NCBI GenBank assembly: GCA_019635775.1
Contig: JAHBYU010000007.1
Coordinates: forward strand, 1-64,000
Source of the DNA: Rhizobiaceae bacterium
Lineage (GTDB): Bacteria > Pseudomonadota > Alphaproteobacteria > Rhizobiales > Rhizobiaceae
DNA: 64,000 nt
Reading direction: 5' to 3'
A program made the translations under genes and the position numbers. A model generated the notes under the pieces. It was not told the DNA's origin and did no database searches. It worked only from the letters and a program-made list of their open reading frames with translations. This document shows positions 26,726-61,559 of this stretch, one piece after another. Every line of letters starts with the position of its first letter. Position 1 is the first letter of the stretch.

Positions 26726-27991
26726 TCAAGCAAAACTGTCCAGCGCAGCGGCAAGCGCCGGATGAGCGCGGGCGTATTCGGTCGCAGGAATGCCCTCTCT
26801 TGCCGCCTGCCATGCCTCGTGAATCGAACGAACGCCGGCCTCGACGCCATGAGGATGTCCGATGATGCCGCCGCCACAACAGTAGATCAGGTCCGTGGTA
26901 CCCAACCGCCTGTAAGTCTCCTCCGCCTGTACCGCCGATTGGGCCGAGGAGAAGACCGGCATGACGGTGTCCGGTCGGTCTTCCCGCGCGAACATTGGGG
27001 TGAGGCACTCCTGCGCGGAGGCGATCACGCTGTCGTCTGGCTCACAGAACTTGTTACGCAGCCCATTGACGTGGAGATGATCCACCCCCGCAAGACGCCA
27101 GAACTTCTGATAGGCCAGATAGCTCATCCCCAGGGCGGGGGAACGATCATAGAGACCCCAGCCTGCGCGGTGACCGTGCAGCGCGACGGATGAATGGCGG
27201 CGGATTTCGATGACGCCGGACAGGCCTGTCGAGTTCAGTACGAGCATCGCGCACGTGCCGCCCCGGCGCTCGATGACATCGAGTTGCCTGCGCATAGCAT
27301 CCATGTCGCCGGAAATGTTGACGGCGTACATTGCTTTCCTGCCAGTCCGATCCGCATGGCGATCGATGACTTTCATGACAGCCTCGAATCTTTCGGCGAA
27401 TGGCGAGTGGGGTGGATCGCCCATCAGTTCGTCATCCTTGAGGAAGTCGAGTCCAGCGCCGATCATCATGTCGGCAAGTTCTGCCGTCGCCTCTGGTGTC
27501 AGGCCGACGCTCGGCTTGAAAATCGTGCCGACGATCGGGCGATCGTAGACACCGGTCAGCTTGCGCGTGCCCGAGACTCCAAAGCCCGGGCCGGGATAGG
27601 CATCAGCAAAACTATCCGGGAACTCAAGCGTGAGCAGCTTCAGGGCAGAGAAGTGATGCAGTTCGAACAGATTGCCAAGAACGGTGGACCACACCGAGGC
27701 GAGGATAGTTCCGGTATTCTCCACGCTCCAGGAGATCGTGACCTTGGCTTGGCGGGGACGCTGCGACGCTCCGGTTTTAGGACCGCGCGAATGAGGCAGG
27801 CTTGGGTATTGGGTGTCGCCAATGATGTCGATGCTTTCAACCCTGGCTCCGAACCTAGCCAGTAGTTCCGCTGTTTCGCCGGGCATGGCGCGGAACGTTC
27901 CGCTCGACTGCTCGCCGGCCATGGCGGCCGCAGCCTGATCCACCGGATACGCTGTTTCGATCAGGTAGGTCGCAAAGATTCGATTGGACAA
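26726..27991 (-). CDS. RuBisCO-like protein (form IV), probable 3-oxo-isoapionate-4-phosphate-cleaving enzyme
   Basis: A RuBisCO-like protein of about 421 residues. The large-subunit active-site framework remains: K159 in FKPSVGL (K175 in RuBisCO), and the carbamate lysine and metal ligands K185, D187 and E188 in DFLKDDEL; also HGHRAGWG, HVNGLRNKF and CCGGGIIGHPHG. Known RLPs of the D-apiose pathways either decarboxylate 3-oxo-isoapionate-4-phosphate or split it by transcarboxylation/hydrolysis; the neighbours here (kinase, ApnO, ApnL, ApsD) match that setting. I choose TTG 27989-27991, which gives the family start (SNRIFATYLIETA); a GTG at 28030 is the alternative, and neither has a strong ribosome site. 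A GntR-type operator lies upstream at 28041-28054. Confidence 0.88.
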   Translation of the reverse strand: MSNRIFATYLIETAYPVDQAAAAMAGEQSSGTFRAMPGETAELLARFGARVESIDIIGDTQYPSLPHSRGPKTGASQRPRQAKVTISWSVENTGTILASVWSTVLGNLFELHHFSALKLLTLEFPDSFADAYPGPGFGVSGTRKLTGVYDRPIVGTIFKPSVGLTPEATAELADMMIGAGLDFLKDDELMGDPPHSPFAERFEAVMKVIDRHADRTGRKAMYAVNISGDMDAMRRQLDVIERRGGTCAMLVLNSTGLSGVIEIRRHSSVALHGHRAGWGLYDRSPALGMSYLAYQKFWRLAGVDHLHVNGLRNKFCEPDDSVIASAQECLTPMFAREDRPDTVMPVFSSAQSAVQAEETYRRLGTTDLIYCCGGGIIGHPHGVEAGVRSIHEAWQAAREGIPATEYARAHPALAAALDSFA

Positions 27992-28040
27992 TGTGGCACC
28001 GGAACAGATTGAGTTCCGGCGAAGTAGCACATCAAAGTGT

Positions 28041-53133: not shown

Positions 53134-54315
53134 TCAATCATACAAATCGAGGAGATGCTCGATGCAGGCGTTGATCCGTGCGAGGTAGGGCAAGGGGAAA
53201 GCTGCCGCAAACAGAAACTGATGTCCGATACGGTTGATCGCCTGGAGCTTCAGTTCCGCGCGGAACGCCTGCTCGAAACCTTCGGGATCGAGGCCCGACG
53301 CCAAATCTCCGGCAGACTCGATGATCGCTTTCCTGTGGCCATCGACAAGGGATTTGACCTCAGAGCGCGGGGTCCCCGCCGGGAGCACGAATGTAAGCAA
53401 TTCGACGAGATCGCGTTGTGGGGCGTCGCGCGCGGCAAGTTCCCAGTCCAGCGCAATCGGAGCAGGCCGGAAGCCGCAGTTCCTGTTGTTGAAGTCATCG
53501 TGCACCAGTGTGACGGGAAGTTGATCCTTGATCGGATGCCAGACATCGATTGTATCGACGATATGATGTCGGCGACGCCAGACGGCTTCCGTCAGGATAT
53601 CCGGGAAACGCCCTCGGGCGTTGTCCAGAAGACCCCGCCACAAGCCTTCGTCGGCGAGCCGCTGGGCTGTGGTGGCGCGCGGCGCCGCGAATGCGTCGTC
53701 CATGTGATCCACCTTGCCGAGAAACGCGCCGTGCCAACCTCCCGCCGCCGAAAGGGCCGACGCGATCAACGCCGGTGGCCAGTCGCCTTCTGCGCCCGCT
53801 GCGTCGAGACGAGCCACATTGTCGAGAAATTCGAGGAAGATGGCGTGTTCGCCGCTTTTCCCATCCACGACGCCCCCGTAGCAACGTGGCAGTACCCGCG
53901 CCAGAGAAGGACAGCCTGGGGCGAGCCCGTTGAAGACATGATATTCGCGTGCGCCGGTATGGTCGAACTCGCTCGCTGCATGATATTCCGGATACGGTCG
54001 GTCCAGCGCGATACCATGTTCGCGGATGATCCAGCTGTTAAGCGTTCGAGCGAGACCTTGAGCCGGGTTGACTTTCACAGCGAGGCGTAGCCGTTCCACT
54101 GCGGCATCGGGACTACGCCGGAAATCGACGGTCGCGGGAACCACGCCGTGCCATTCGTCCGGTCCCGACGGTCCGTATTTGACGCGGATCCATGGTTGGC
54201 GTTTCTCGTCGATGACGGGCCGCTTTCCAGCAATGCCGACGATGCTCAGACCCGGTGCGCCGAGGCTTTTTTTAAGGCAATCCTCGACTGCCAACCGGAT
54301 GATACTCAGCCGCAT
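53134..54315 (-). CDS. APH-family phosphotransferase (unknown substrate)
   Basis: A 393-residue kinase-like protein of the aminoglycoside-phosphotransferase/choline-kinase superfamily. The ATP-Mg core is visible: LVHDDFNNRNCGF (H272, D274 and N279) and ALDWELA (D290), with K81 in LAVKVNP as possible beta-3 lysine. The start is ATG 54315, with GAGGAA 8 nt upstream; a TTG two codons earlier is less likely. It is upstream of araB on the same strand, with a 224-bp gap; a shared role in sugar-derivative phosphorylation is only an inference. It is longer than antibiotic-modifying APHs, so resistance is not indicated. Confidence 0.78.
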   Translation of the reverse strand: MRLSIIRLAVEDCLKKSLGAPGLSIVGIAGKRPVIDEKRQPWIRVKYGPSGPDEWHGVVPATVDFRRSPDAAVERLRLAVKVNPAQGLARTLNSWIIREHGIALDRPYPEYHAASEFDHTGAREYHVFNGLAPGCPSLARVLPRCYGGVVDGKSGEHAIFLEFLDNVARLDAAGAEGDWPPALIASALSAAGGWHGAFLGKVDHMDDAFAAPRATTAQRLADEGLWRGLLDNARGRFPDILTEAVWRRRHHIVDTIDVWHPIKDQLPVTLVHDDFNNRNCGFRPAPIALDWELAARDAPQRDLVELLTFVLPAGTPRSEVKSLVDGHRKAIIESAGDLASGLDPEGFEQAFRAELKLQAINRIGHQFLFAAAFPLPYLARINACIEHLLDLYD

Positions 54316-54376
54316 GAGCAAGGTTCCTCAACCACATAACGCCGCACCGGCGACGTGATCTACCCACCGCCTTGGC

Positions 54377-54404
54377 CCGACGAGTGTTGACCGACGAGTG
54401 TTGG
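54377..54404. repeat. 14-bp tandem duplication
   Basis: CCGACGAGTGTTGA (54377-54390) is followed directly by CCGACGAGTGTTGG (54391-54404), differing at the last base. It lies in the gap between the APH gene and the RND gene. Its origin by replication slippage is likely. Confidence 0.6.
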
Positions 54405-54489
54405 GCCTGTTGCAGAAGGACCGGAGAATATCAGAAATCCAGGTGCCTGCGGATTGCATTCCGGCCAAGCTCGAACTGCCGCTTCCGGG

Positions 54490-57400
54490 TCACTTCCGCA
54501 AGACCACATAGATCGCGGGAATGACAAGCACAGTGAGCGCGGTGGACGAAATCAAGCCGAATAGCAGCGAAATCGCAAGACCCTGGAAAATCGGGTCGGT
54601 CAGTATGACAGCGGCGCCGATCATCGCTGCGATTGCCGTAAGCATGATCGGCTTGAAACGAATGGCGCCCGCTTCGAGAAGGATCTCGACCAGTGGCTGG
54701 CCCGGCCTTCGTGCGTGTCTGATGAAATCCACAAGCAGAATCGAATTGCGCACGATGATGCCGGCAAGCGCGATGAAGCCTATCATGGACGTGGCGGTGA
54801 ACGGGGCGCTGAACAGCCAGTGGCCGACCATGATGCCGATGAACGTCAGGGGGATCGGCGTCAGGATGACGAGGGGCAGCTTGAAGGAACGGAACTGGGC
54901 CACGACCAGGATGTAGATGCCCAGGATTGCCACCATGAAGGCTGCTCCCATGTCGCGGAATGTGACCCAGGTCACCTCCCATTCGCCATCCCAGAGAAGG
55001 GTCGGGTGCGTCTCGTCGTCCGGCTGGCCATGCAAGGCGATTGCAGGCTTCGGGACGTCGCCCCAGTCAGCATCGTCAATCGCAGCGGCGACCGCGATCA
55101 TGCCATAGACCGGCGCCTCGTATGCACCGGCGAGTTCGCCGGTGACCATCTCTGCCGCGCGCCCGTTGTGACGGAAGATCGGGAAGGACGCGGTTTCGCG
55201 CGAGACCCCGACGACGTCGCCAAGCTCGACGACGTCGCGCCCGCCGGGCAAGGCGTTTGCCGGAACAGGCGTCGACAGCGCCCGCTCGTTCATCACCTTC
55301 TCGCCTTTCGGGAGAGCAACCACGATGGAAATCGGTTGGCGTCCGCCGCCTCGGTGCGAGTAGCCGACCTTCACGCCGCCGTAGAGGGCGCGCAGCGTGC
55401 CATACACATCTGACTGTTCGACCCGATAGTACTCGAGATTGTCCTGGTCGATAGAGATGCGAACACGCTGCGCTGGGGCGCCATATGAGTCGTCGACATC
55501 GACAATGAACGGAACGCTCTCGAAGGATTTCCGTACCTTCTCGGCCACGGCGCGGCGGGTCGCTGGATCGGGGCCGTAGATCTCGGCCAGCAGCGTGCCC
55601 ATGACAGGCGGCCCAGGAGGAGGCTCGACCACCTTGACCGCCGTTCCGTGAGGCAGGTCCGCACCCGCCAGGCGCTCGCGTATGTCGAGCGCGATCGCGT
55701 GACTTGCGCGGTCGCGTTCGGCTTTGGGCAGGAGATTGATCTGGACATCGCCCAGATAAGGCGCGTTGCGCAGGTAGTAGTGACGGACCAGGCCGTTGAA
55801 ATTGAACGGCGAAGCAGTGCCTGCATAGGTCTGGAAAGAAACGATCTCGGGAACCTGCTGGAGCCGGTCGACGATCGCCTGCAAGGCCCGGTCGGTCGTC
55901 TCGACCGAGGAGCCCTCGGGAAGGTCGACCACAACCTGCAACTCGGCTTTGTTGTCGAACGGCAGAAGCTTCACCGTGACGTGCTTGGTGTAGAACAGCG
56001 AGAGGGACGCGAGCGTCGCCAAGCCCACGACCGCGAGGAAGATCCAGGCTCGTTTCCTCGACCGCAGGATTGGACGCGCGACCGCGACATATGCCCGGCC
56101 AAGCCTGCCTCCGTCCGAGTGACCATGCGCGTGGGCGGCAGTATCCGACTTGCCGAACTTCATCATCAGCCAGGGGGTCAGCATCACCGCAACGAAGAAC
56201 GAGAACAGCATGGCCGCCGAAGCGTTGGCGGGGATCGGGCTCATGTATGGCCCCATCATTCCCGACACGAAGAGCATGGGCAGCAGCGCCGCAATGACGG
56301 TGAGCGTCGCCACGATCGTCGGGTTGCCTACTTCGGCCACGGCATCAATCGCCGCCTTCGCGCGCGACCGCTCGTCCCCCATCCCCCAGTGGCGCGCAAT
56401 GTTCTCGATCACGACAATGGCGTCGTCGACTAGGATGCCTATGGAGAAGATCAGCGCGAAAAGGCTGACGCGGTTCAGCGTGTAACCCATGACGCGCGAG
56501 GCAAAGAGCGTCAGCAGAATCGTGGTCGGTATCACCACGGCGACCACAAGCGCCTCGCGCCAGCCGATGGCGATCGCCACCAGGAAGACGATTGAGACGG
56601 TAGCCAGCCCGAGATGGAAGAGCAGCTCGTTTGCCTTCTCGTTGGCCGTCTCGCCATAGTTGCGCGTGACCGTCATTTCGACGTCTTCGGGGAAGATCTG
56701 ACCCCGGACCTGCTCCACACGATCCAGGATTTCCTCGGCGATGACAACGGCGTTTGTGCCCGGGCGCTTGGCGATTGCCAGCGATACCGCCGGAACACGG
56801 CTCAGCCCGTCGTCTGTCTTCCTGATATCGGTGACGCGGTTCTCGTTGGGTTCGGTCGCCAGCACGATCCGTGCAACATCGCGAACATAGACAGGACGTC
56901 CGTCGCGGGCGGTGAGCACGAGGTTGCCGATCTGCGGCATGGCCTGAAGCGTCTGCCCGGCAAGAACCGTCCGCTGCTCGCCGTCCTCGCGAACCATGCC
57001 GATCTGGAACGAGCTGTTGGCGCCCGCCACCTTGGCGGCGAGCTGCTGCAGCGTGATGCCGTAGAGCGACAAAAGCTCGGGGTCCGGCTCTACCCTGATC
57101 TCTTCCGGTTGCTCGCCGACGATATAGGTCAAGCCGATGTCGGGCAGTTTGGACAGCTCGACCTGGAGTTCGCGCGTCAGCCTGGTGAGGTCGTTCGCAC
57201 TCCAGCGCTCCGCCGCGGCAGGCGTTGGCGAGAGTGTCAGCACGACAATCGCCACGTCGTCGATGCCGCGGCCGACGATCAGGGGCTCCGGAATGCCTAC
57301 GGGAATGCGGTCCAGGTTGGCTCGAACCTTGTCGTGGACCCGCAGAACTGCCGCGTCGGCACTCGTTCCGACCTCGAAGCGCGCCGTGACGACCGTGCCG

Positions 57401-57675
57401 TCATCCTGCGTCTGGGAATACACATGCTCGACACCGTCGATGCTCTTTATGATCGTCTCAAGCGGCTCCGTTACCAGCTTGACGGCGTCTTCCGCCTTCA
57501 GGCCGTTGGCGTCGACGCGGATGTCAACCATAGGCACCGAAATCTGTGGCTCTTCCTCGCGCGGCAGGGTCAGCAGGGCGACCATGCCAAGCGCAAGCGA
57601 CGCCAGCAGAAAAAGCGGCGTCAGCGGCGAGCCGATAAAAGCGCGCGTAAGATTGCCGGCGATGCCGAGATTCAT
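54490..57675 (-). CDS. RND efflux transporter permease
   Basis: A 1061-residue RND pump (inner-membrane proton antiporter). It has about 12 helices, the proton-relay pair D417-D418 in ILVDDAIVVIENIARHW (TM4), and two large periplasmic loops. The N-terminus carries LPREEEPQISVPMVDI. TM4 has two aspartates but not the heavy-metal DFG-type set, so the substrate is probably organic or sulfur-related rather than Cu/Zn. It is translated from an ATG overlapping the adaptor stop by 4 bp. The operon begins with sulfide:quinone oxidoreductase and is divergent from a persulfide-sensor-type regulator, so efflux may serve sulfide or persulfide stress. No outer-membrane channel gene is present. Confidence 0.93.
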   Translation of the reverse strand: MNLGIAGNLTRAFIGSPLTPLFLLASLALGMVALLTLPREEEPQISVPMVDIRVDANGLKAEDAVKLVTEPLETIIKSIDGVEHVYSQTQDDGTVVTARFEVGTSADAAVLRVHDKVRANLDRIPVGIPEPLIVGRGIDDVAIVVLTLSPTPAAAERWSANDLTRLTRELQVELSKLPDIGLTYIVGEQPEEIRVEPDPELLSLYGITLQQLAAKVAGANSSFQIGMVREDGEQRTVLAGQTLQAMPQIGNLVLTARDGRPVYVRDVARIVLATEPNENRVTDIRKTDDGLSRVPAVSLAIAKRPGTNAVVIAEEILDRVEQVRGQIFPEDVEMTVTRNYGETANEKANELLFHLGLATVSIVFLVAIAIGWREALVVAVVIPTTILLTLFASRVMGYTLNRVSLFALIFSIGILVDDAIVVIENIARHWGMGDERSRAKAAIDAVAEVGNPTIVATLTVIAALLPMLFVSGMMGPYMSPIPANASAAMLFSFFVAVMLTPWLMMKFGKSDTAAHAHGHSDGGRLGRAYVAVARPILRSRKRAWIFLAVVGLATLASLSLFYTKHVTVKLLPFDNKAELQVVVDLPEGSSVETTDRALQAIVDRLQQVPEIVSFQTYAGTASPFNFNGLVRHYYLRNAPYLGDVQINLLPKAERDRASHAIALDIRERLAGADLPHGTAVKVVEPPPGPPVMGTLLAEIYGPDPATRRAVAEKVRKSFESVPFIVDVDDSYGAPAQRVRISIDQDNLEYYRVEQSDVYGTLRALYGGVKVGYSHRGGGRQPISIVVALPKGEKVMNERALSTPVPANALPGGRDVVELGDVVGVSRETASFPIFRHNGRAAEMVTGELAGAYEAPVYGMIAVAAAIDDADWGDVPKPAIALHGQPDDETHPTLLWDGEWEVTWVTFRDMGAAFMVAILGIYILVVAQFRSFKLPLVILTPIPLTFIGIMVGHWLFSAPFTATSMIGFIALAGIIVRNSILLVDFIRHARRPGQPLVEILLEAGAIRFKPIMLTAIAAMIGAAVILTDPIFQGLAISLLFGLISSTALTVLVIPAIYVVLRK

Positions 57676-58676
57676 GGCATTACGACCTTGTCCCCGTCCC
57701 GCAGCCCGCTGAGGATCTCGATGCGTGGGCCATCGGCCGTCTCGACAGCCTCGCCCAGGACAACCGCCACGTCGATCTCGCCCTGCGGAGCGGAGATGCG
57801 CACATAATCGACACCGTGAAGGGTCTTCACCGCCTGCCGCGGCACAAGAAGCACGGAACGCTTGCCGACCGGAATGGACACCAGCGTGCGCTCGTTGACG
57901 AAGTAATCGCCAACGTCGGCCACCTCGACATCGGCAATCACGCGGCCATTGTCGATCTCAGGGTAGACCTTGGCGATCTTGCCCTGCCGCGCTTGCGAGG
58001 GGGTGCTTGAAGAAGACCGGGTGAGACTCCGCTCGCCGACAAGGACCGTATCGCCTTCCTTTATCTCCGAGGCGTGCCGCTCGGGTAACGAGAGGCGCAG
58101 ATAGTAGGGGCCCGTCGCGATGCGGGCGATTTCCTCGCCGGCCATGATGACCGAACCGGGCGTCACGGGAACCGTGAGCACGCGCCCGGTGGCGGGCGCC
58201 AGGGTTTCGCCCTCGCGCGCGCGCTGCTCGACCACTGCCTTGTTGGCCTCTGCGGCGACGACCTGGTTGGTTATGACGTCCAGTTGGGTTCGCAGCGCGT
58301 CGAGACTGCTCTGCGTGGCGATGCCCTGCGTAAGCAGCTTCTGGATGCGTTCGTAGTCCTTCTGAACGTTTTGCAGTTGCGACTGAAGCGCTTTCAGCTG
58401 CGCGTCGGCAGCTTGCCTTTCCAGCGCAATCTTGTCGTCGACAACGGTGGCGATAACGTCGCCTTCATTTACTTCGCTGCCCTCGCTGACGTTGATGCTG
58501 CGGATCGTACCGCCGATGCGCGCCCTTGCCGGAACCACGGTGCGGCTCTCGACCTGCCCGAACACCGCCTTCATCTCAGCGATGACGCCAGGCGTGACGA
58601 CGAACTCGGCCGCGGCGGCAGGCAAAGGCGCAGCCGCGAGCAGCGCGGCGCAGATAAACAAGCTTTGTTTCGGCAT
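57672..58676 (-). CDS. RND periplasmic adaptor (membrane-fusion protein)
   Basis: A 334-residue adaptor with a signal peptide (about 22 residues, ending PAAAAEF), lipoyl half (IGGTIRSINVSEGSEVNEGDVIATVVD, about 45-70), a coiled-coil hairpin (about 78-145, rich in Q, K, L, E, A) and second lipoyl and beta-barrel parts (PATGRVLTVPVTPGS). It links the inner pump to an outer-membrane channel. I use ATG 58676, which follows GGAGA; the frame has an earlier ATG adding a polar tail. It lies 78 bp after the DUF2892 gene and is coupled to the pump gene. Confidence 0.9.
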   Translation of the reverse strand: MPKQSLFICAALLAAAPLPAAAAEFVVTPGVIAEMKAVFGQVESRTVVPARARIGGTIRSINVSEGSEVNEGDVIATVVDDKIALERQAADAQLKALQSQLQNVQKDYERIQKLLTQGIATQSSLDALRTQLDVITNQVVAAEANKAVVEQRAREGETLAPATGRVLTVPVTPGSVIMAGEEIARIATGPYYLRLSLPERHASEIKEGDTVLVGERSLTRSSSSTPSQARQGKIAKVYPEIDNGRVIADVEVADVGDYFVNERTLVSIPVGKRSVLLVPRQAVKTLHGVDYVRISAPQGEIDVAVVLGEAVETADGPRIEILSGLRDGDKVVMP

Positions 58677-58754
58677 GTACGGTTCTCCGGATGACGGCGT
58701 GACCGGCAAAGCGAGCGAAGGCCCGATCCTCTCAGGTGGCCTGTCGTGACGCCT

Positions 58755-58958
58755 CTACTTGAACGCCACGCCCGATCGGCAGCCGAGCTTCCTGAACACG
58801 ATTGCTGCGGGGCAAAACCCGCTGATGGAGGACTGTATCAGGTTCAGCCCGACGAAAGCAGTGAGCAGCAGCCAGTAGGGTGAAACATAGTAAGCGAGCG
58901 CCAGCGAGATCAGGACCATGAAACCCGCAAACATCAGTACCGCGCGATCGATCGTCAT
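58755..58958 (-). CDS. DUF2892 small inner-membrane protein
   Basis: A 67-residue protein with two membrane helices (about 7-27 and 30-48) and the DUF2892 ending GFCPAAIVFRKLGCR, which has two cysteines (about residues 49 and 60). The same domain is found in YgaP-type rhodanese proteins. Its role here is unknown, but the cysteine pair next to sulfide oxidation genes suggests sulfur handling. It lies 30 bp after the SQR gene. Confidence 0.88.
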   Translation of the reverse strand: MTIDRAVLMFAGFMVLISLALAYYVSPYWLLLTAFVGLNLIQSSISGFCPAAIVFRKLGCRSGVAFK

Positions 58959-58988
58959 TGTGCTTCTCCTTTTTTGGGGGCGAGCCGG

Positions 58989-60281
58989 CTACTCGACCGG
59001 CTCGATATGGATGTCCTTGAGTTTCTTGATGCCGAGGACATCAAGCGCGAGGCTCTCGTAGAAGGTCTCCGCCTTGCCCTGGCGTACCTTGTGGAGGAAA
59101 TACTTCTCGAAGCCGACTTTTGCGGCGTGCACCCATTTGCCTTGCGAGGACCAGTTGACGTTGCGAGGCGGGATCTGAGGCTGGGCAACGAAAGCGATGC
59201 CCTCGTCGCCGAAATCCGCCAGGCAGACGGCGTTCCAACTCGCCACTGCCTGGGGTTTCTCGCCTTTCAGCAGGGACGCGATGTTGTTTGCCGTGGCCGT
59301 GACCATCGATTCGATCATGAAGCCAGTCTTAGGCACGCCGACCGGAAGCGGCGTCTTGCCAACCGGCGGGATAGCGACACACACGCCGATTGCAAACACG
59401 TTGGGAAAAACCGGATTGCGCTGATGCTTGTCGATGACGACGAAGCCCCTCGGGTTGGTGAGTCCTTCGATCCCGGCCACGGACGGTACGCCCCGGAACG
59501 CCGGCAACATCATCGAATAGGCGAAGGGGAGTTCATGTTCGGTCTTGAGCGAGCCGTCTTCCGCGACCTCCTCGGCAAACATGATGCCCTGCTCCACTTT
59601 GGTCACGCGGGCATTTGTGATCCACTTGATGTGGCGGTCGCGCATTGCGCTCTCAAGAAGCCCTTTGGTGTCGCCGACGCCATCTAGGCCGAGGTGGCCG
59701 ATATAGGGTTCGGGCGTCACGAATGTGATCGGCACCTGGTCACGCTTCCTCGCGCGCCGCAACGCTGTGTCCAGGATGAAGGCGAATTCATAGGCGGGGC
59801 CGTAGCACGAGGCCCCCTGCACGGCTCCGACCACGATTGGACCCGGCTTCTTCAGCAACGCGTCGAAGTTGGTCTGCGCCAGCAGGGCGTGGTCGATGTG
59901 GCAGATGGACTGTGTGAAGCCTTCGGGTCCAAGCCCCGGCACCTCGTCAAAGGCGAGATCCGGCCCTGTGGCGATGATGAGATAGTCGTAGTTCAGGAAT
60001 GAACCGTCATTGAGCTCGATGCGGTTCTCTTTGGGTAGCACCCGCCGGGCACCTTCAGGCCGGAGCGCGATGCCGCGCTTCTCCAATACCGCGGACAGGT
60101 CGACGGTTATGTCCTCGCGCTTCCTCCAGCCGACCGCTACCCAGGGATTCGACGGGACGAACGAATAGCTTGTTCCGAGATTGACGACCGTCAGCCTGTC
60201 TTCGCGGCTCAGTCGCTGCTTCATCTCGTAGGCCATGATGGTGCCACCGAGGCCGGCACCCAGAACGATGATGTCCGACAT
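58989..60281 (-). CDS. sqr: Sulfide:quinone oxidoreductase (FAD-dependent)
   Basis: A 430-residue FAD enzyme that oxidises sulfide to sulfane sulfur and reduces quinone. The FAD motif IIVLGAGLGGT is at residues 4-13. Cysteines at 127 (SICH), 159 (QGASCYG) and 353 (NAVCLADFGD) line up in position with C128, C160 and C356 of the Acidithiobacillus ferrooxidans enzyme, including the redox-active pair, so I call a true SQR rather than a generic NAD(P)/FAD protein. The C-terminus with amphipathic character may bind the membrane. ATG 60281 follows GGAGG; an upstream ATG 15 bp away is less likely. It is divergent from the SqrR-type regulator. Confidence 0.9.
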   Translation of the reverse strand: MSDIIVLGAGLGGTIMAYEMKQRLSREDRLTVVNLGTSYSFVPSNPWVAVGWRKREDITVDLSAVLEKRGIALRPEGARRVLPKENRIELNDGSFLNYDYLIIATGPDLAFDEVPGLGPEGFTQSICHIDHALLAQTNFDALLKKPGPIVVGAVQGASCYGPAYEFAFILDTALRRARKRDQVPITFVTPEPYIGHLGLDGVGDTKGLLESAMRDRHIKWITNARVTKVEQGIMFAEEVAEDGSLKTEHELPFAYSMMLPAFRGVPSVAGIEGLTNPRGFVVIDKHQRNPVFPNVFAIGVCVAIPPVGKTPLPVGVPKTGFMIESMVTATANNIASLLKGEKPQAVASWNAVCLADFGDEGIAFVAQPQIPPRNVNWSSQGKWVHAAKVGFEKYFLHKVRQGKAETFYESLALDVLGIKKLKDIHIEPVE

Positions 60282-60383
60282 GCTGTTTTCCTCCACCAGA
60301 GTTCTCAGTAGAAGCTCTTTCGGCGGCAGCGGCCTTGATCTCGCTCAATAAGTGCCGCCCGCCGCTCTTCTCACTTGCAAATA

Positions 60384-60418
60384 ACATTCAAAGATTATAA
60401 ATTCAAGAATATGAATGT
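60384..60418. promoter_or_regulatory. AT-rich operator region of the SqrR-type regulator
   Basis: This is a strongly AT-rich stretch in a GC-rich region. It contains ATTCAAAGAT (60386-60395) and ATTCAAGAAT (60401-60410) as direct repeats 15 bp apart, and ACATTCA/TGAATGT arms (60384-60390, 60412-60418). It overlaps the start codon of the regulator (60411), so autorepression and divergent control of sqr are plausible. Confidence 0.55.
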
Positions 60419-60710
60419 AAAAGAAATGATTCCGGCCTCGGGCAAGGCAGCCGAACTGCTCAGAAGCCTTTCGCATCCGCAGCGATTGCTGGTGCTTTGC
60501 GCTCTGGGCAAGGATGAGAAATCGGTGGCCCAACTGCGCCGCGAACTGGATATCGACCAAGTACCGATGTCGCAGCAACTCATGCGGCTGCGTGCCGACG
60601 GTCTGGTCGAGGCCCGCCGTGATGGCACCACTATGTTCTATCGCATCACGCGGCAGGAGGTGCTGACCGTGGTTCAAGCCCTGCACACCGCATTCTGCCC
60701 GCCAAAGTGA
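60411..60710 (+). CDS. sqrR: ArsR-family persulfide-sensing repressor (SqrR/BigR/YgaV type)
   Basis: A 99-residue winged-helix repressor: HTH about 35-75 (SVAQLRRELDIDQVPMSQQLMRLRADGLV). Two cysteines, C30 (LLVLCALG) and C96 (TAFCPPK), are 66 residues apart, exactly as the sensor cysteines of SqrR (C41/C107) and BigR (C42/C108). These form a polysulfide link when reactive sulfur rises, releasing DNA. It lies 130 bp from the divergent SQR-DUF2892-RND operon, which it should repress in the absence of sulfide. ATG 60411 is chosen; a second in-frame ATG is at 60426. Confidence 0.9.
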   Translation: MNVKEMIPASGKAAELLRSLSHPQRLLVLCALGKDEKSVAQLRRELDIDQVPMSQQLMRLRADGLVEARRDGTTMFYRITRQEVLTVVQALHTAFCPPK

Positions 60711-60818
60711 CCGTCAACCTTATGCGAGCCTGTCGGCGCGTGCGCGGTGCGCTGAGGACTTCTTTCCCTCAGGGTCTCAGCCCAAACCGGCCAGTGGCTG
60801 ACTGCCGGCCATGGGAAC

Positions 60819-61559
60819 TCAGCCTGCGAGCGCACCGGTCGACGAATCCAAAGCCTTGCGGATTCGGCTGAAGCTCATGGCGATATGGGCGCGTCGAACA
60901 TGGCCTGCGGCAGCGAGATCTCCCAGTTCTACCGCCTCGGTTATGTCGGCAACTTCGCGCTCGAAGATCACGAACTCGTTGTTCAGGAGTTGCTCATAGT
61001 CCTTCAGCCGCGAGGCCGTCTTCAGCCAGATGCGTGCGGTCTGGTAGTAGAGGCGTTCGCTGATCTGGCGCAGCGGTTCATTGGCCGTCAGACCGTTGAA
61101 CAGGTGGAAGAACTCCATGTTGATACGTGAAAACTCCCTTGGGTCGCCCTTCCTCGCCATGCGGTAGCAACGTTCCCTGATCTCCTGGAAGCCCGCGACC
61201 AGCGTGTCGTCAACGAGAACAGGCGAGAGCGTTCCAACCAGTCCCGCCAGCTCGACGCGCAGTTCGTAGACCCCGGCCAATGCGTTGACCTCGATATCGG
61301 TAACGATAGTCCCCACGCCGTGGACCGAACGCAACAGGCCTTCGGCCTCAAGCTTTACGAGAACCCGGCGGATAGGCGTGCGGGAGACGCCGAACTCGTC
61401 GGCCAAATCCTCCTCGCGAAGTCGCTCGCCTGGCGCATAGTCGAGCAGGCATATGCGCATGCGCAGGGTCTGATAGATGCGGTCGAAACGCCCACGCGCA
61501 CCCTCCTCGGCCGGCCTTTGGCCGCCCGACCGCATCATCGGCTCGCTCTCCTCCGACAT
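60819..61559 (-). CDS. GntR-family regulator (FCD type)
   Basis: A 246-residue regulator with winged helix (about 25-90; YAPGERLREEDLADEFGVSRTPIRRVLVKL) and an FCD-type effector domain (about 100-235, with INMEFFHLFNG). ATG 61559 overlaps the deacylase stop by 3 bp (ATGA), giving an operon of DoeA-type hydrolase, ArgE-like deacylase and regulator. It probably controls the operon's promoter beyond 63927. The preceding 108 bp (60711-60818) hold no gene. Confidence 0.9.
   Translation of the reverse strand: MSEESEPMMRSGGQRPAEEGARGRFDRIYQTLRMRICLLDYAPGERLREEDLADEFGVSRTPIRRVLVKLEAEGLLRSVHGVGTIVTDIEVNALAGVYELRVELAGLVGTLSPVLVDDTLVAGFQEIRERCYRMARKGDPREFSRINMEFFHLFNGLTANEPLRQISERLYYQTARIWLKTASRLKDYEQLLNNEFVIFEREVADITEAVELGDLAAAGHVRRAHIAMSFSRIRKALDSSTGALAG

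Follow-up and report, generated by a model that had tools for sequence, protein, structure and literature searches.

A pairing of sulfide oxidation with an RND efflux pump is found in Azospira suillum PS, where the genes Dsui_3440-3443 encode a sulfide:quinone oxidoreductase (SQR), an RND pump, its adaptor and a protein of unknown function. Bar-seq data, which gave a fitness signal, suggested that these genes form a single operon, which is strongly expressed under sulfide, and a DUF2892 gene at a different locus is raised about 10-fold (PMC5358917, 2017). RND pump genes have also been placed, by gene neighbourhood, among the likely targets of sulfane-sulfur-responsive ArsR regulators that carry a cysteine pair (PMC12423496, 2025); section 2.1 of that survey, unlike the present analysis, presents no RND clade or control. 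In E. coli, a homologue of SqrR and BigR is paired with YgaP in the YgaVP system (PMC9774250). Here we deal with a five-gene locus at positions 54490-60710 of a 64,000-nucleotide stretch of DNA from a Rhizobiaceae bacterium, referred to as the window, in which a plus-strand ArsR gene diverges from minus-strand genes for SQR, a DUF2892 protein, an RND adaptor and an RND permease.

The locus shares the SQR, the RND pump and the adaptor with the Azospira operon, and an ArsR regulator goes unmentioned in the main text of that report (PMC5358917). An earlier, sequence-only reading of the window had regarded the association of an RND pump with sulfide oxidation as undescribed, a view that is overtaken by the Azospira operon and by the RND genes known beside cysteine-pair ArsR genes (PMC12423496). 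In the mainly non-subscription literature searched, we found no publication in which this RND clade is defined or its substrate tested. In many proteobacterial families, permeases of this kind are linked with SQR and persulfide-sensor-like repressors, and they form a separate clade with a signature by which its members can be recognized. It is reasonable to suppose that the pump may export a sulfur species. The reading that we favour, and to which we give an even chance, is that of a persulfide-derepressed sulfide-handling unit in which the RND pump exports sulfane-sulfur species made by SQR.

The five genes and their predicted repressor

The coordinates and orientations of the five genes are as the sequence-only reading had given them, with open reading frame (ORF) coordinates and family scans in agreement. 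The ArsR protein has an ArsR-type winged helix (PF01022, 29.3 bits against a cut-off of 22). Its best solved relatives are an ArsR-family regulator, 13ct/6o8k (72 bits), which we take to be SqrR of R. capsulatus, and the 'Biofilm growth-associated repressor' 3pqj (71 bits). Its NCBIfam BigR score of 88.4 bits lies under the equivalog cut-off of 155, and the protein is thus a relative rather than an equivalog of BigR. Its cysteines, Cys30 and Cys96, are exactly 66 residues apart, which bears out the earlier comparison with SqrR and BigR. The corresponding pairs of published relatives are Cys50/116 (PMC12423496) and Cys31/98 (PMC9774250). Of the 398 genomes sampled below, 2 contain a close orthologue (E 1e-30), namely the window's own and one other (G217), and in each it adjoins this RND pump.

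The start of arsR is overlapped by a palindrome, ATTCAAGAATATGAAT, of the form ATTC-N8-GAAT, which we take to be the SqrR operator consensus. The pattern is present at this position in 30 of the 33 close ArsR loci, the window's included; as L038 and L158 are one and the same genome stretch, this amounts to 29 of 32 distinct loci. An alignment of ArsR loci anchored at the arsR start shows conservation of a block that runs from CTTGCA to ATGAATGT, and 0 of the 53 columns upstream reach 75%. The conservation of the right half-site may be partly coding, since this half-site overlaps the start codon of arsR. Read from the opposite strand, the palindrome forms the 16-nt spacer of a promoter-like site, TTTACA-16-TATAAT, which faces the SQR operon and is the sole sigma-70-like site detected in 54200-60900. 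By analogy with SqrR, BigR, YgaV and HlyU, an ArsR dimer bound to the palindrome would block the promoter that runs across it; sulfide would raise cellular persulfide, a sulfur bridge would form between Cys30 and Cys96, and the repressor would be released. That the palindrome and the promoter-like site overlap lends support to this predicted sensing and derepression of the SQR operon. Within 60375-60425, a possible plus-strand promoter noted by eye ends just ahead of the overlap between palindrome and arsR start, and the arsR message might therefore be leaderless.

On the minus strand, SQR and DUF2892 are separated by 30 nt and DUF2892 and the adaptor by 78 nt, while the adaptor and permease genes overlap by 4 nt. 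The SQR protein aligns over its full length with the solved sulfide-quinone reductase 3sz0 (E 5e-145), and Cys127, Cys159 and Cys353 fall on cysteines of that structure. These residues presumably have the catalytic roles that go with the type I label, and the protein is a predicted sulfide:quinone oxidoreductase of type I-like form. It is the only SQR found in its genome. The DUF2892 protein belongs to the Pfam family YgaP-like_TM (PF11127, 4e-11). The sequence-only reading had described it as a membrane protein with a cysteine pair; the pair exists in the window protein, as Cys49 and Cys60, but it is not a feature of the family, in which only the first cysteine, of the C-P/A type, is conserved (108 of 112 DUF2892 matches scanned, as against 60 of 112 with any later cysteine). 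With YgaVP the window has the YgaP-like transmembrane segment in common; the window protein is without a rhodanese domain, and the passages on YgaVP consulted name no SQR or RND gene with that system (PMC9774250).

A canonical BigR operon holds a persulfide dioxygenase (PDO) or rhodanese gene. The window's operon has neither, and the PDO of this genome sits on another contig (L211:8013-12612, G000:C31), in a BigR-type operon with an ArsR gene encoding Cys38 and Cys104 (66 apart) and a DUF2892 gene; its further genes, named by eye, are YeeE-like, DUF6691-like, sulfurtransferase-like and SulP-like. The two operons share a cysteine-pair ArsR, a DUF2892 protein and sulfur genes, but the second has PDO and the YeeE-like gene instead of SQR and RND. 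Its DUF2892 protein scores 22 bits on the profile of RND-linked DUF2892 proteins, compared with 129 (L245) and 110 (L247) for two that are RND-linked.

Gene linkage across genomes

The surroundings of related permeases were examined in two main samples. The first consists of 80 named loci, found by scanning genome contigs, some of them incomplete, and representing the best 80 of 575 relatives; their titles are alphaproteobacterial, with one exception labelled merely 'bacterium'. Within 6 kb of the permease, DUF2892 is found in 65 of these 80, ArsR in 53 (51 with cysteines 65-67 apart) and a clear SQR in 37; at least one of the three is present in 68 and all three in 33. The ArsR search model catches ArsR proteins generally, and cysteine spacing is the finer test. 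A clear SQR is one of at least 300 bits, a threshold that leaves out weak flavoprotein matches (5 of 42 among named loci, 1 of 24 among close genomes and 1 of 7 among distant loci) and undercounts SQR types remote from the query, such as the flavoprotein beside the Paracoccus denitrificans pump, which scores 52 bits.

The second is an even sample of 398 Pseudomonadota genomes, in each of which only the two best candidates were scored; 153 of them have a permease match at E 1e-200 or better. Every non-window match of at least 1320 bits was taken as close, which gives 33 genomes, all of the same class as the window's; two carry permeases identical to those of named loci (L158 = L038, L161 = L075). 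Within the same distance, DUF2892 occurs in 25 of the 33, ArsR in 25 and a clear SQR in 23, with at least one in 29 and all three in 18. The 25 ArsR proteins have a cysteine spacing of 65-67 in 15 cases and of 62 or 63 in eight of the other 10. The pump-side ArsR genes of L174, L178, L181-L184, L186 and L188 encode cysteines 62 rather than 66 apart, a variant of the sensor spacing.

For comparison, 39 other RND loci were hand-picked from the listed matches. Six of them come from the window's genome, and 18 of the close genomes supplied one or two each. Contig ends truncate five, and in four (L231, L232, L233, L239) the RND model gave no match, so that for these four the whole stretch was scanned rather than the 6 kb distance. 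No SQR, DUF2892, ArsR, rhodanese or PDO gene was found in any of the 39 stretches, which cover about 8 kb per side where the contig permits. The difference between 29 of 33 close relatives and 0 of 39 controls has a Fisher P of 4e-16, a value calculated over related genomes that are not independent. The earlier reading had depended on co-occurrence beyond this strain, and with so broad a pattern the notion that the arrangement is limited to it is rejected.

Linkage also persists while gene order varies, with SQR lying upstream of the permease, divergent from it or downstream. A set of 36 distant loci, chosen by hand from the listed matches so as to cover a wide spread, includes 20 with one or more of the three genes and 5 with all three. 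The sampled rows represent 33 family codes, and a sulfur context (SQR, DUF2892, ArsR, rhodanese or PDO) is seen in 22 of them. The distribution is patchy: the pump is found at E 1e-200 in 0 of 3 genomes of the window's genus, yet on 44 plasmid records. On the Shinella plasmid pShin-07 (L246:757-3272), an IS6 transposase gene lies upstream of adaptor and RND genes, and no DUF2892, SQR or ArsR match was found in the stretch scanned, which begins at the start of the record. On a plasmid of Paracoccus denitrificans PD1222 (L245:2719-13021), a group of PDO, DUF2892, YeeE and ArsR genes stands beside a DUF2892-adaptor-RND trio; cytochrome c and b genes separate the two groups, and the flavoprotein encoded after the pump is only distantly SQR-like.

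Further neighbours in the 33 close genomes are rhodanese (12), outer-membrane factor (OMF; 10), thioredoxin (9), PDO (4) and TauE (4). The last two would suit a pump that exports sulfite or thiosulfate, the end products of sulfide oxidation, in place of sulfane sulfur, and a conserved arginine in the permease insertion described below could, from the alignment, accommodate such an anion. However, PDO is encoded at a separate locus in the window's genome and is not within 6 kb of the pump in 29 of the 33, and we regard this explanation as distinctly improbable. RND pumps are commonly drug pumps, and the substrate could instead be an organic, thiol-attacking toxicant that raises persulfide, such as an isothiocyanate, a thiosulfinate or an organotin, with SQR clearing the sulfide released. 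Against this, the recurrent neighbours that can be named are mostly genes of sulfur oxidation, sulfur transfer and sulfur transport; in its favour, tributyltin derepressed ygaVP of E. coli (PMC9774250). Export of such a toxicant is unlikely, though it deserves some weight.

The permease clade

The permease family is distinct from AcrB and MdtBC. A FastTree phylogeny of 106 rows, including 20 of the 80 named and 12 of the 39 control loci and the full sets of 33 close and 36 distant loci, places all 90 sampled family members in one clade with a support of 100; E. coli AcrB, CusA, MdtB and MdtC and the 12 control permeases fall outside it. A quick IQ-TREE analysis of 51 of the 106 rows recovers the same clade, again with a support of 100 and with AcrB and MdtBC outside it. 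The family profile finds its best solved match in 7wlv (265 bits), and its identity to AcrB in the profile alignment is 24%.

Two features make up the sequence signature. The first concerns the residues Asp-Asp-Lys-Arg-Thr, which we take to form the proton relay of HAE1 pumps. Every one of the 90 clade rows retains Asp407, Arg971 and Thr978, and 89 retain Asp408, but the position of AcrB Lys940 is occupied by arginine in all 90, where the controls have lysine (10 of 12) or asparagine (2 of 12); the HAE1 relay is thus altered from Lys to Arg. The second is an insertion of the type FNGLVR[HQ]YYLR, at which 7wlv has a gap. Its loose core, F(NG/AA)(L/M)(V/L)R, is found in 153 of 153 family loci, which comprise 80 named, 33 close and 36 distant loci and 4 loci of relatives, and a stricter form in 122 of 153; neither form occurs in any long frame of the 39 control loci. 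The HAE1 pumps AcrB, MexB, OqxB and MdtBC share PF00873 with the clade, which differs from them in the arginine and the insertion. Among the members that carry both the FNGLVR motif and the arginine are those of Paracoccus denitrificans PD1222 and Azospirillum brasilense Sp7; in the latter, a single locus brings together SQR, DUF2892, adaptor, RND, rhodanese and ArsR genes. The loss of the AcrB pocket phenylalanines was considered as a further marker and set aside, as these residues are also absent from several control RND proteins, MdtB and CusA.

The same alignments bear on the possibility that the pump removes metal-sulfide complexes or sulfide-mobilized metals. The metal-ligand triad of CusA is, we assume, made up of Met573, Met623 and Met672. 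At the first site the clade has methionine in 12 of 90 rows and valine in 63, at the second methionine in 21 of 90, and at the third a gap in 90 of 90, while the position of Lys940, arginine throughout the clade, is glutamate in CusA. The window permease, with Arg976 and with valine, leucine and a gap at the triad positions, was accordingly rejected as an HME (CusA-type) RND, and it scores 229 bits on the TIGR CusA/CzcA model, whose cut-off is 701. Metal-sulfide export is nevertheless what the Azospira authors proposed for the pumps, of RND and metal-efflux type, that were raised under sulfide (PMC5358917). For the present clade it appears rather improbable.

The adaptor carries an RLS-like motif, R-x3-L-x6-S/T, that is found in 101 of 146 family adaptors, and OMF genes are located elsewhere in the window's genome. 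With the meaning that we assume for this motif, the two together say only that this is an ordinary tripartite pump.

Features of the locus, with positions in the window
Feature	Position	Strand	Basis
ArsR-family repressor, SqrR/BigR-like, 99 aa	60411..60710	+	solved relatives, Pfam/NCBIfam, Cys30/Cys96
Putative operator ATTCAAGAATATGAAT (ATTC-N8-GAAT)	60401..60416	.	pattern kept in close ArsR loci
Promoter-like site TTTACA-16-TATAAT, towards the SQR operon	60394..60421	-	11/12 consensus positions
Predicted type I-like sulfide:quinone oxidoreductase, Cys127/Cys159/Cys353	58989..60281	-	3sz0, E 5e-145
DUF2892 / YgaP-like transmembrane protein, 67 aa, GFCP-type Cys49	58755..58958	-	PF11127, 4e-11
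RND periplasmic adaptor, RLS-like motif RIQKLLTQGIAT at residues 110-121	57672..58676	-	TIGR01730, 137 bits, cut-off 94.9
RND permease, 1061 aa, without cysteine	54490..57675	-	PF00873, E 6e-138; trees
FNGLVRHYYLR insertion, permease residues 626-636	55768..55800	-	alignment, motif scan
Arg976, in the proton relay where AcrB has Lys940	54748..54750	-	alignment of clade rows

Proposed sulfane-sulfur export and the evidence for and against it

In the persulfide-derepressed unit that we favour, SQR would oxidize sulfide, passing electrons into the quinone pool and releasing polysulfide, S0 or an organic persulfide. With its one conserved cysteine, the DUF2892 protein may pass on or scavenge sulfane sulfur. 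The RND permease and adaptor, joined by a TolC-type channel encoded elsewhere, would take the sulfane-sulfur product from the periplasm or the outer leaflet and export it. The unit as a whole is supported by the cysteine pair of the repressor and its similarity to SqrR and BigR, by the palindrome within the promoter-like site, and by the contrast in linkage between close relatives and control loci. The rhodanese, thioredoxin, PDO and TauE neighbours point the same way, as do the position of both close ArsR orthologues beside the RND genes, the presence of OMF genes elsewhere in the genome and the sulfide-induced SQR-RND operon of Azospira (PMC5358917).

These parts do not all have the same standing. 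The layout of the locus, the conserved palindrome, the gene linkage and the separateness of the RND clade are shown by the sequence data, while binding by the repressor, induction, the chemistry of sensing, the part played by DUF2892 and the substrate are proposed. That the pump exports the sulfane-sulfur product of SQR we infer from gene linkage, and we put the chance of this at about one half. A more specific proposal is that the clade as a whole is dedicated to sulfane sulfur made by SQR at the membrane, which it would export through a tripartite pump in the form of polysulfide, organic persulfide or S8; the arginine-bearing FNGLVRHYYLR insertion, near the position of the AcrB G-loop, would form part of a pocket for anionic sulfur chains. 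Such an exporter would act as a sulfide valve, moving oxidized sulfur past the outer membrane. This proposal is tentative and falls somewhat short of an even chance.

A number of points weigh against sulfane-sulfur export by a persulfide-controlled unit. The substrate itself is one that we infer. The 33 close genomes cannot be counted as independent; a clear SQR is not within 6 kb of the pump in 10 of them, and none of the three marker genes is there in 4. An OMF gene stands beside the pump in 10 of the 33 and beside control pumps in 10 of 39, a similar frequency, so that OMF neighbours say nothing special. Family scans of the window's operon found no OMF, rhodanese or PDO gene within it. Shuffled sequence yields a mean of 1.2 promoter-like sites of the kind described above where the real region has 1, and the site alone therefore proves nothing. 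In Azospira, deletion of the whole operon left the rate of sulfide oxidation unchanged, although sulfide there is oxidized by another enzyme (PMC5358917). Finally, 24 of the 89 labelled clade rows in the 106-row tree are without sulfur context; 9 of these rows (L118-L120, L147-L152) make up a subclade that has no sulfur genes but retains both the insertion and the arginine.

In 7 of these 9 subclade loci, a small SCP2-like gene, named by eye, is found near the pump in place of the sulfur neighbours. As the subclade bears both signatures, the signature marks the clade and not necessarily a sulfur role, and the SCP2-neighboured loci suggest a change of role within the clade. The subclade, together with the 4 of 33 genomes without all three markers, could also be taken to mean that these RND genes serve general envelope stress and that any sulfur export is incidental. 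This is highly improbable, given that the linkage outlasts repeated changes in gene order and is absent from the 39 other RND loci.

To our knowledge, the manner in which polysulfide or elemental sulfur made within the cell passes the outer membrane is not settled. A pump family that bears a recognizable signature makes this question testable by deletion. Sulfane-sulfur export, if correct, would bring sulfur into the substrate range of a transporter superfamily that is associated mainly with drugs and metals.

Outside the five genes, the downstream gene at 53134-54321 was excluded from the operon: neither Pfam nor NCBIfam gave it a match at 0.001, and blastp against loci L001-L085 found the window locus only. 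Further away, on the minus strand at 26726-28030, an ORF that by eye resembles a RuBisCO-like protein lies amid sugar-transport genes.

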